From contig NZ_JAVDDV010000001.1 of the NCBI RefSeq assembly GCF_030848565.1, positions 62,001 through 126,000 on the forward strand: a DNA stretch of 64,000 nucleotides. The letters are read 5' to 3'. Below are positions 25,519-61,701 of this stretch, piece by piece. The stretch comes from Natronolimnohabitans sp. A-GB9 (GTDB taxonomy: Archaea; Halobacteriota; Halobacteria; Halobacteriales; Natrialbaceae). The first letter of the stretch is position 1; each line of letters starts with the position of its first letter. The translations under genes and the position numbers were made by a program. The notes beneath the pieces are model-generated. The model was not told where the DNA came from. It saw nothing but the letters and a program-made list of their open reading frames with translations, and did not search any database.

Positions 25519-25683
25519 TCACGTCGTTCTTTCGGTCAGTTCCGACGTTCCGATGGTAGCCGCTGAATGTCACTGTACACTCGATCGCGCGACGGCTGTA
25601 CGATCGGTGTGGAAATCGGTTCAGTAGCTACTATCGCTCTCGAGTCGGACTCCGTCGTCTTCGTTTCGCCGACGTTGAATGAA

Positions 25684-53377: not shown

Positions 53378-53434
53378 GGCGTTGTACGGTCGCGAACGAT
53401 CACCGCGCTCGTTGGGTTACTTCTCGGCGTCGCC

Positions 53435-53738
53435 GTGAGTATCGCCGCCTGGGTGTTCCTCGAGACGGTACTGCTGTTCTTGTTTCTCCCGTTCGTTCCA
53501 TTTCTCTTCGGCTGGGGCGGGTCGGAGCGGACAGACGAGATGTCTCGAGCGAGTCGCGTCAAACGGTGTCCGGACTGTTCGTTCCAAACGACGGAGTCGG
53601 CGTTCGACTATAGTAACAACTGAAACGATTCACACACCGATCGCACAGCCGTCGTGCGATCGGGTGTGCATTGACTTTCAGTGGCTACTATACTGTCCGC
53701 GGGACGGTCGCCGACTGCAAGAGAAGCGAGTCCAGTGA
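53435..53738 (+). pseudogene. Membrane/zinc-ribbon protein gene interrupted by an 80-bp element
   Basis: The left part encodes a hydrophobic segment (AAWVFLETVLLFLFLPFVPFLFGW), a polar stretch and KRCPDCSFQTTESAFDY, the first half of a zinc ribbon. At 53609 the frame enters the inserted element and stops at TGA 53621. After the element, bases 53693-53738 resume with the sense CPRDGRRLQEKRVQ then TGA. Removing 53611-53690 and one TA gives FDYCPRDG in a single open frame. The hydrophobic frame also extends upstream to the PadR stop without a recognised start; GTG 53435 is the first. Confidence 0.85.
53611..53690. mobile_element. 80-bp MITE-like element, TA target duplication (copy 1)
   Basis: Starts TAGTAACAACTGAAACG and ends GACTTTCAGTGGCTACTA, an imperfect inverted repeat pairing nearly end to end, with CCGATCGCAC/GTGCGATCGG at the centre. 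TA flanks both sides (53609-53610 and 53691-53692). It interrupts a zinc-ribbon gene whose frame is restored by removing it with one TA. It encodes no protein and would need a transposase in trans. TA duplication is typical of the IS630/Tc1-mariner group (inference). Confidence 0.85.
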
Positions 53739-58938: not shown

Positions 58939-59018
58939 TAGTAACAACTGCAACGGTTTACACACTGATCGCCGATCCGTCTGGCGATCAGGTGTGCAAT
59001 GACTTGCAGTGGCTCCTA
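58939..59018. mobile_element. 80-bp MITE-like element (copy 2)
   Basis: Same length and ends as copy 1 (TAGTAACAACTGCAACGG ... GACTTGCAGTGGCTCCTA), with paired changes keeping the stem: TGAAA/TTTCA in copy 1 becomes TGCAA/TTGCA here, and CCGATCG/CGATCGG becomes CTGATCG/CGATCAG. Flanks are GA and TA, so no intact TA duplication. It lies 4 bp past the stop of the DEAD-box helicase gene. Confidence 0.82.
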
Positions 59019-59022
59019 TAGT

Positions 59023-61701
59023 TCACGCGTAGAACAGCGGCGGCCGTCGGTCGCCGCCGTGGTCCTCGTCGGGCAGGTGTGCTGCCAGTGCGCTCTCGTC
59101 TTCGTTCTCGAGTACGTGATCGAGGACGTCGACGGCGGCTCCGCGGTGGAGTGGCTGATTGTCGTTGCCACACTGCTCGTCCATCACGCAGGCGGGACAG
59201 CCGCCGGTGTTTCCACAGTCGCAGTCGGCGATCAGTTCCCGTGCGCGCTCGGCGACGGTCTCGAAGTTCTCGTAGATCGCCCGTGCGAACCCGAGGCCGC
59301 CGTCGATGCCGTCGTAGATGAACCAGCCGCTGGTCGGGTCGCGCTCGAGGCCGCTTGCGATCTCTCGGATGGTCGCTTCGGCGGCGGCGATGTTCTTGGG
59401 AGCGTCGTCGCCTGCCGACACGTCGGGTCCGGCGGCCGACTCCGAGTGAGCCGGCTGCTCGAGGTGTGAGTCGATCGACAGCGTCGCGAGTCCGCCGAGG
59501 TCTCGCTTGTCGACCATCAACTCGAGTGGTGCGACGCCGATCGTCGCGTGTTCGGCGGCGTGGAGCCCACCTGCGTACCCGAGGTGGGCGGTATCGGCGA
59601 ACTCGTCTTCGAGCCCGGGAATCGAGACGTCGCGGTACTTTTCGATGAGAGCGCGCTCGACGCGCTGTGGCACCTCGAGCCAGCACAGCTGGGTCTCCAT
59701 CGACAGCGGCGGGTTGTCGGTCGGGATCCCCTGTTCCCGTTTCGTTCCGCCGTGGACGGCCACCTTGTCGTAGGTGCCGTGGTAGACGAGCACCTGGCCG
59801 CGACCGAAATGCAGCGTGAACTCACCGATCTCGCGGGACTGCTCGGAGACGGCATCGAGGACGGTCACGTCCGTTCGCGTGCGCGTGTAATAGTCCACGT
59901 CCGTCGGCCGCAGCGTGACAGTCGGACGTGGCCCACCGTGGTCGACACTCGTCACCTCGTACTGTTGGCCCTGGTGCAATCTGACTGCCCCCTCGTGGAA
60001 ATCACGCAGGACGCGTTCCTTCGCGAGCGGTTCCATCTCGGGATCGTACTCGTCCTCGACATCGTCGGCGAGGCGGACGTCGTACTCCTCGCCCGTGGTC
60101 GCGTACAGCGAGATCGACTGTTGGGGTCGAGGCGGTCCCGTATACGAGACGCCCGTCTCGAGAGCGCCCTGGAGCTGGCCGGCGCGACGCCACATCTCGA
60201 CGGCGCGCTCGAGTCGCTCGCGCTCGGCGACGGTCCCAACGTCCGATTCGTCGACCGCGAGTTCGTCGGCCGCACACCGCAAGTGTTTCGCGAAGACGGC
60301 GTCGTTGTCGACGTCGACCACGGCGTCCTCGACGTCGTTCTCGAGCAGGTAGTCCGGATTCGAGACGACGTACTGATCGAGTGTGCGGTGGTCGGCGACG
60401 AGCACCGAGAGTGCACGTTTCGTCCCACGGCCCGCGCGTCCGATCTGCTGCCAGAACGACTGGCGTTGGCCTGGGTAGCCGAGCTGGACCGTCGCGTCCA
60501 TCTCGCCGACGTCGATCCCCAACTCGAGGGCGTTCGTCGAGGCGACGCCGTCCAGAATGCCGGTCTTGAGCCGGTGTTCGGTCCCGTGGCGCTTCGCCCG
60601 CGAGTGGCCGGCGTGATAGGGCTCGAGCGCGCTTCCCCGGTCAGGATGCGTGTAGTAGCGGCGGTTGTCGTGGCGGTGTTCCGACGCTCGCTTGATCGAG
60701 AGCTCGGCGAGCTTCCGCGAGGGCGTAAACAGCAGCGTCTGGGCGTCGTGATAGGTGAGATGCGAGAGTACTCGCGGGGCCTCGACGGTCGCGGGGACGC
60801 GCTCGAGGGCGTCGTCGCCGTCGGTATCCTCGTCGTGATCGGCCTCGGTCCACTCGTCGCGCCCGTCGTGGCTCCCGTCCCGGTCTCGAGGCGGCGGGTT
60901 CCAGAGCACCAGATCCCGGGGCCCCGTCGGGGAGCCGTCCTCGTCGACGACGGTAACCGACTCGTCGATCAGCGCCGACGAGTGCTCGCCGGGATTGCCG
61001 ACCGTCGCGCTCGTAAGCACGTACTGGGGTGACGCGTCGTAGTAATCGAGAACGCGTTTCAGTCGACGGACGATCCAGGCGACGTGCATGCCGTGGACGC
61101 CGGTGTAGGTGTGTGACTCGTCGATCACCACGAGATCACACGCCGAGAGGAACCGTGCCCAGCGATCGTGGTCGTGCAGGTAGGTGTTCACGCCGGCGAA
61201 GTTCGTGATGACGACGTCGGCTTCCTCGCGGATCCGCTTGCGATTGCGGCCGCGTTCGGTGTCGCCGTCGTAGACTCGGACCGTGATCTCGAGGCCCAGT
61301 TCATCGAAGAGGTCGTTCAGGCTCCGTTCCTGGTCCCGTGAGAGTGCCTTCGTTGGATAGAGCAGATACGCGGTCGATTCGATGCCCCGAGCCCGCGCCT
61401 CGAGGTAGTTGCGCGCGATCTGGAGCGCGTAGATTCGGGTCTTCCCCGAGGACGTACTCGTCGCGACGCAGACGTTTTCGCCGTCGGCAAGCGCCTCGAG
61501 GGCATCGGCCTGGTGGGTGTAGAGGTCGTGCTCGAGCGGTTTCGCGAGATCGGCCCGGAGCACGTCCTCGCTGGGGACCGTCTCCGCAGGTCGGCCGGGG
61601 CGCTCGAGGACGGTGACGTCGTCGGGCAAGCCAGGATAGGTTTCGACCAGCTCGTCGCCGGTGATCGGGACGTCCTGTGCGTTCGGTCGGTGGTCACTCA
61701 T
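59023..61701 (-). CDS. DEAD/DEAH-box helicase with C-terminal DUF1998 zinc site (MrfA/YprA-like)
   Basis: 892 residues. Walker A VATSTSSGKTRI (about 80-90), DEAH-box VVIDESHTYTGVHG, helicase C-domain with GQRQSFWQQIGRAGRGTKRALS. The C-terminal cysteine cluster CDCGNTGGCPACVMDEQC matches the DUF1998 zinc site. In Bacillus the relative MrfA works with the nuclease MrfB in mitomycin DNA repair. Here a matching nuclease gene is 3 bp upstream on the same strand, so the pair is likely cotranscribed and functional. Substrate damage type is unknown in archaea. Confidence 0.93.
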   Translation of the reverse strand: MSDHRPNAQDVPITGDELVETYPGLPDDVTVLERPGRPAETVPSEDVLRADLAKPLEHDLYTHQADALEALADGENVCVATSTSSGKTRIYALQIARNYLEARARGIESTAYLLYPTKALSRDQERSLNDLFDELGLEITVRVYDGDTERGRNRKRIREEADVVITNFAGVNTYLHDHDRWARFLSACDLVVIDESHTYTGVHGMHVAWIVRRLKRVLDYYDASPQYVLTSATVGNPGEHSSALIDESVTVVDEDGSPTGPRDLVLWNPPPRDRDGSHDGRDEWTEADHDEDTDGDDALERVPATVEAPRVLSHLTYHDAQTLLFTPSRKLAELSIKRASEHRHDNRRYYTHPDRGSALEPYHAGHSRAKRHGTEHRLKTGILDGVASTNALELGIDVGEMDATVQLGYPGQRQSFWQQIGRAGRGTKRALSVLVADHRTLDQYVVSNPDYLLENDVEDAVVDVDNDAVFAKHLRCAADELAVDESDVGTVAERERLERAVEMWRRAGQLQGALETGVSYTGPPRPQQSISLYATTGEEYDVRLADDVEDEYDPEMEPLAKERVLRDFHEGAVRLHQGQQYEVTSVDHGGPRPTVTLRPTDVDYYTRTRTDVTVLDAVSEQSREIGEFTLHFGRGQVLVYHGTYDKVAVHGGTKREQGIPTDNPPLSMETQLCWLEVPQRVERALIEKYRDVSIPGLEDEFADTAHLGYAGGLHAAEHATIGVAPLELMVDKRDLGGLATLSIDSHLEQPAHSESAAGPDVSAGDDAPKNIAAAEATIREIASGLERDPTSGWFIYDGIDGGLGFARAIYENFETVAERARELIADCDCGNTGGCPACVMDEQCGNDNQPLHRGAAVDVLDHVLENEDESALAAHLPDEDHGGDRRPPLFYA

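Follow-up and report, generated by a model that had tools for sequence, protein, structure and literature searches.

Insertion sequences of the IS630 family integrate at TA dinucleotides and duplicate the TA, and ISY100, a bacterial member of the IS630/Tc1 group, inserts almost only at such sites with the same duplication. Cleavage in this group reportedly involves no hairpin intermediate (PMC2170065). In genomes of the Natrialbaceae, IS630 elements of the ISNma7 group, found in Natrialba magadii and its relatives, are numerous and 1055 bp long. The ISNma7-like elements are about 1055 bp in length and carry a transposase encoded in two frames. Their terminal repeats span only about 15 bp with the core GTTAGAA, and their inner arms are non-complementary.

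Smaller relatives of transposons have also been described in archaea. The MITEs of Haloquadratum walsbyi and other archaea are short, non-coding and present in many copies, and they exhibit target duplication and terminal inverted repeats related to those of a transposon (PMC3119063, PMC10969869). The small mobile repeats (SMRs) of Haloquadratum, including the 80-bp HqIRS41, are likewise very short and mobile with prominent inverted repeats, but they do not duplicate their target, and no transposon matches these repeats (PMC3119063). Finally, REP/REPIN elements, which are associated with RAYT transposases, are palindromic and keep their hairpin.

The 80-bp repeat described here is a non-autonomous mobile element of the MITE type. 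It has terminal inverted repeats (TAGTAACAACTGNAA / TTNCAGTGGCTACTA), a target-site duplication and many dispersed copies, and it carries no transposase gene. Because 80 bp cannot encode a DDE transposase, the element is at most a non-autonomous relative of IS630/Tc1 transposons. Its insertion into TA with duplication of the TA, observed at three empty sites, is a feature of the IS630/Tc1-mariner group. Compared by description with the MITEs of H. walsbyi and other archaea, the family differs in its 80-bp length, in being centred on Natrialbaceae and in its strong arm-to-arm covariation. Membership among the SMRs was rejected because the element duplicates TA and has IS630-like ends. The TA duplication and the IS630-type terminal repeats also distinguish it from REP/REPIN elements, and a PATE or REPIN identity (moved by an HUH transposase) was rejected on the presence of terminal inverted repeats and TA duplication. 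Our search of the open-access literature found no description of the 80-bp element or of arm covariation in a MITE. Judged by the literature that could be searched, this is a new IS630-type MITE family of Natrialbaceae whose two arms covary unusually strongly as DNA.

Copies in the window and their differences

The window, by which we mean the entire 64,000-nucleotide stretch of DNA analysed, carries copy 1 at 53611..53690 and copy 2 at 58939..59018, both on the plus strand. Each is exactly 80 bp, as the first-pass annotation had reported. Numbering element positions from TAGTAAC, copy 1 belongs to the A13-T68 / C28-G52 / A35-T45 subfamily and has intact TA repeats on both sides. Copy 2 belongs to the C13-G68 / T28-A52 / C35-G45 subfamily, of which its own genome contains a dozen near-identical representatives (96-99% identical to copy 2). 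Its left flank is GA, not TA, and it is mutated at position 77, inside the right terminal repeat. A profile search uncovered a third, older and more decayed copy on the minus strand (25554..25633) that was absent from the earlier annotation.

Copies 1 and 2 differ at 13 of their 80 positions. Fully compensatory changes have occurred at three pairs, 13-68, 28-52 and 35-45, the last of them near the loop; the first and third went from A-T to C-G and the second from C-G to T-A. These correspond to the paired changes noticed in the first-pass annotation, which had described the first as TG(A/C)AA with TT(T/G)CA, the second as a C-G to T-A exchange in the stem and the third as a change near the loop. 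Its more general statement, that both arms change together where the stems differ, does not cover every difference, as five of the 13 are uncompensated. Pair 18-61 is altered on both sides with loss of pairing (A-T to G.A), positions 21, 38 and 77 carry one-sided changes, and pair 36-44 has moved from C-G to a G.T wobble. Copies 1 and 2 fold with much greater stability than dinucleotide shuffles on either strand, with z values of -6.4 and -4.2 as DNA and of about -4.5 to -6.8 as RNA. The hairpin of the third copy is weaker (z -2.5).

Copy 1 truncates an ORF for a membrane/zinc-ribbon-like protein (53378..53623, plus strand), as determined from its translation and from alignment to relatives. 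The last residues and the stop codon of this ORF come from the element (..CPDCSFQTTESAFDYSNN), such that the truncated product terminates CPDC...YSNN. On our reading of the aligned DNA, the relatives appear to encode a second Cys knuckle further onward, which would have been lost from the ORF in the window. Copy 2 is located just past the stop codon of a minus-strand gene (59023..61701) that is called helicase-like by a reading of its translation alone.

Mobility and distribution of the family

Empty sites were recovered for three independent insertions, each of which adds 82 bp, equal to the element plus a duplicated dinucleotide. For copy 1, the relatives G001 and G005 carry a single TA (TTCGAG-TA-CTGTCC or similar). 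The filled site reads TTCGAC-TA-[80 bp]-TA-CTGTCCGCG, compared with TTCGAG-TA-CTGTCCGCG in G005 and a similar sequence in G001, and the duplicated TA occupies positions 53609..53610 on the left and 53691..53692 on the right. An empty site for a Natrinema insertion, found in close relatives, also has one TA (GAACTGC-TA-MTCC), and a second Natrinema empty site (GGC-CA-GTGG) has one substitution in the target dinucleotide. The exact empty site of copy 2 was not recovered, as its flank is too diverged. The 258 full-length copies that we gathered come mostly from Natrialbaceae, and 228 of these are exactly 80 bp. TA is present at both flanks in 201 of the 258, and 107 have CTA..TAG flanks.

The element matches 25 places in its own genome and is found in 26 of 61 related genomes, nearly all of them from Natrialbaceae. 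Named loci come from Natrinema, Natrialba, Natronorubrum, Natrarchaeobius, Natronolimnohabitans, Natronococcus, Haloterrigena and Halostagnicola. A strict pattern search through 146 genomes of the order located the element in 16, again almost only in Natrialbaceae. Further copies are found in plasmid records of Haloarcula, Halomicrobium and Halostella, and a search of 50,697 phage records yielded none. The copies outside Natrialbaceae on plasmid records NC_013201 and NC_015944 (Halomicrobium, Haloarcula) suggest that the element spreads via plasmids.

Neither orthologous immobile copies among the 258 nor insertions shared between genomes among the sampled copies were found. This held even among three Natrinema genomes that are ~93% identical over a flank. 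Because no sampled insertion is common to two genomes, the sites occupied by the sampled copies appear to have turned over recently.

Several copies depart from the simple arrangement. At three loci (L010:501-580, L131:6708-6867 and L142:4495), a copy has inserted directly at an older copy's right end, and the copies form head-to-tail arrays with the terminal TA in common. The element's own ends seem to serve as targets. Another member (L200:2965-3084) is 120 bp in length owing to an additional 40-base hairpin in the loop, and both of its arms are still matched. Cargo is therefore tolerated in the loop of the element.

Covariation between the arms and its possible origins

Covariation between base-paired positions is usually taken as proof of a functional RNA. 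To measure it in this family, 204 distinct 80-base copies were aligned without gaps, and an APC-corrected G statistic was compared with 150 alignments simulated along a FastTree tree, which was built from the same 80 columns as the covariation test. Per-column change counts in this null were matched to the data (775 observed, 779 simulated). The best-covarying helix pairs, all with E <= 0.03, are 35-45 and 13-68, which lie above every simulated value, followed by 28-52 (E 0.02) and 36-44 (E 0.03). The sole other pair in this range is the apex neighbour 35-44. In column-specific tests, pairs 9-72, 10-71, 13-68, 22-57, 28-52, 29-51, 32-48 and 35-45 are beyond all simulations. The first-pass annotation had named independent substitutions on the two arms, among copies from this genome and its relatives, as the outcome that would speak against a selected hairpin. 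The 204-copy test instead returned significant paired changes against the tree-based null, with mostly paired combinations. This coupling of the arms is family-wide, with four pairs at E <= 0.03, and extends past the terminal repeats up to the loop.

Counts of individual changes give the same picture. Over the 28 pairs of the stem, both positions have changed and nevertheless pair in 197 cells, compared with a mean of 58 and a maximum of 74 when the letters of the 3' side are shuffled, and with 24 to 38 when the 3' side is slid by 1 to 3 bases out of register. The diagnostic pairs 13-68/28-52/35-45 occur as AT/TA/AT, CG/TA/CG, AT/CG/AT, CG/TA/AT, GC/TA/AT, AT/TA/CG, AT/CG/CG and other combinations, wherein each pair toggles independently of the other pairs and jointly with its own partner. 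All three are fully paired in 132 of 189 copies. The position of the inner block differs by 1-2 bases from one arm to the other. For pair 22-57, the register of covariation is that of the hairpin (sum 79) and not that of the terminal repeats (sum 81). Within subfamilies, 172 pairs have changed on one side and 17 are compensated, with 4.9 compensated pairs expected from shuffles. Most copies retain the mismatches 6-75 and 8-73, and the internal loop 16-21/59-65 persists.

We infer that the coupling operates on the DNA itself. The RNA folds are very stable on either strand, as would be anticipated for a structured non-coding RNA or a regulatory hairpin (a terminator or RNase site) selected on transcripts, but this origin is very unlikely. 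One-sided breaks in the core stems comprise 72 G.T versus 92 A.C cells, or 57 G.T versus 75 A.C inferred events, and so neither count reveals a G.U preference on the plus strand of the element. A search of Rfam gave no match at E <= 1. The copies are also scattered, and no sampled copy is orthologous between Natrinema genomes that are about 93% identical. The missing G.U preference, the lack of an Rfam match and the rapid turnover of sites together make selection on RNA unlikely, and the first two led us to reject a structured RNA family. Of the two roles that the first-pass annotation offered for a selected hairpin, RNA and transposase substrate, the data favour the latter, in that the element is a substrate for TA-duplicating transposition, and disfavour the former, in that G.T does not exceed A.C. 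A large mobile-DNA family with RNA-like pair covariation and no G.U signature serves as a warning for covariation-based RNA discovery.

Our favoured explanation, which we consider probable, is an IS630/Tc1-type MITE that is moved in trans and whose arm coupling is kept by selection on transposing copies. A transposase of the IS630 family, from the ISNma7-like group or close to it, would insert the element into TA within CTAG-like sites and duplicate the TA. Copies with fold-back arms would keep transposing and found new subfamilies, and the remaining copies would decay. Selection at transposition fits because resting copies decay one-sidedly while the lineages that found subfamilies are paired. 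The selected property might be folding itself, if so short an element has its two ends apposed through a cruciform or single-stranded hairpin, or it might be the possession of two equally good transposase sites. Taken jointly, selection on folding or on matched arms probably accounts for the coupling. We lean towards folding on three grounds: the covariation runs as far as the loop, the inner block is displaced by 1-2 bases from arm to arm and pair 22-57 follows the hairpin register. Several points speak against the favoured explanation: IS630/Tc1 transposition is not known to depend on a hairpin, the two mismatches and the internal loop noted above persist, and neither an autonomous element with the exact ends nor, in several copy-rich genomes, a close ISNma7-like transposase was found. 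It is a rather speculative proposal that folded donor DNA, as a cruciform or single-strand hairpin of the whole 80 bp, is the substrate recognised by a DDE, TA-targeting cut-and-paste system. If true, the base pairs of the hairpin would co-evolve as they do in RNA.

Matched arms could arise in other ways. A transposase might read the two arms separately, in which case any shift in its specificity would have to show up in each arm and would mimic covariation with no hairpin needed. Tc1/IS630 transposases do bind terminal repeats via two helix-turn-helix motifs (PMC2170065), the outer blocks of both arms resemble IS ends and pair 13-68 lies within the terminal repeat. However, the covariation extends to positions 28-35 adjoining the loop, the offset inner block and the register of pair 22-57 follow the hairpin, and autonomous ISNma7-like ends lack such long complementarity, and we regard separate reading as possible but doubtful. 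We hold a similarly reserved opinion of mutational coupling, wherein quasi-palindrome correction, by template switching on a folded strand at replication, copies one arm onto the other. Templated correction could explain the adjacent double compensations, such as the replacement of TG/CA by GC/GC in L219, and also why more changes within subfamilies are compensated than expected (17 versus 4.9), which counts against our favoured explanation. Yet most changes within subfamilies are one-sided (172), mismatches 6-75 and 8-73 are left uncorrected in most copies and pairing is lost in decayed copies, the one at 25554 among them. Far less probable than either, and marginally behind even an RNA, is an origin of the REP/REPIN or PATE type, with mobilisation by an HUH (Y1) transposase through recognition of single-stranded hairpins. 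The repeat is short and palindromic with a maintained hairpin, and IS605-type elements are common in haloarchaea (PMC3119063), but the TA is duplicated at three empty sites and the terminal inverted repeats are genuine, whereas PATEs have neither terminal inverted repeats nor target duplication (PMC3119063). The family offers a test case for distinguishing short transposons selected for DNA fold-back from arm-to-arm correction by replication, and its copies are numerous, recent and short enough for synthesis.

A candidate transposase and related repeats

The TA duplication and the CTAG-like target point to the IS630/Tc1 family as the source of the mobilising transposase. ISNma7-like elements reside in the same genomes, duplicate TA and have the ends TAGTAACCGTTAGAAC / TAGTAGRCGTTAGAAATAATTGCTCAC with CTA..TAG flanks. 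These ends start TAGTAAC and TAGTAGNC, and so do those of the 80-bp element on its left and right. Past the shared TAGTA, positions 6-28 of the MITE and ISNma7-like ends match in register (p 0.0002 to 0.01 versus shuffles), including a T-R-C-x-C-A-C box at positions 21-27 that is common to both. The end cores are unlike, with GTTAGAA in ISNma7-like elements versus ACTGNAA in the 80-bp element.

No autonomous IS with exact TAGTARCNACTG ends was present in 30 IS630 loci from PF13358, and no autonomous partner was found among pairs of element-type ends across all loci or, with identical ends, in 50 further IS630 loci. In copy-rich genomes such as G001, G006, G009 and G016, an ISNma7-like transposase is missing or distant. 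Since no autonomous element with the exact ends was found and a close ISNma7-like transposase is missing from several of the copy-rich genomes, we infer the partner from end similarity and target choice, which suggest an IS630-family enzyme of or near the ISNma7-like group.

A candidate 1.95-kb cargo transposon between two such ends (G000:C41:3458-5404) was rejected because it is not one unit. Only its two ends recur elsewhere, as members of other families of small repeats, one about 87 bp and the other about 108 bp long. Palindromic repeats of these other families were observed at L087:661-2603 (G000:C41), L095:503 and L092:503. Both families likewise start TATAGTARCNACTG, and one of them has TACGGACTGCTGTAA-like arms.
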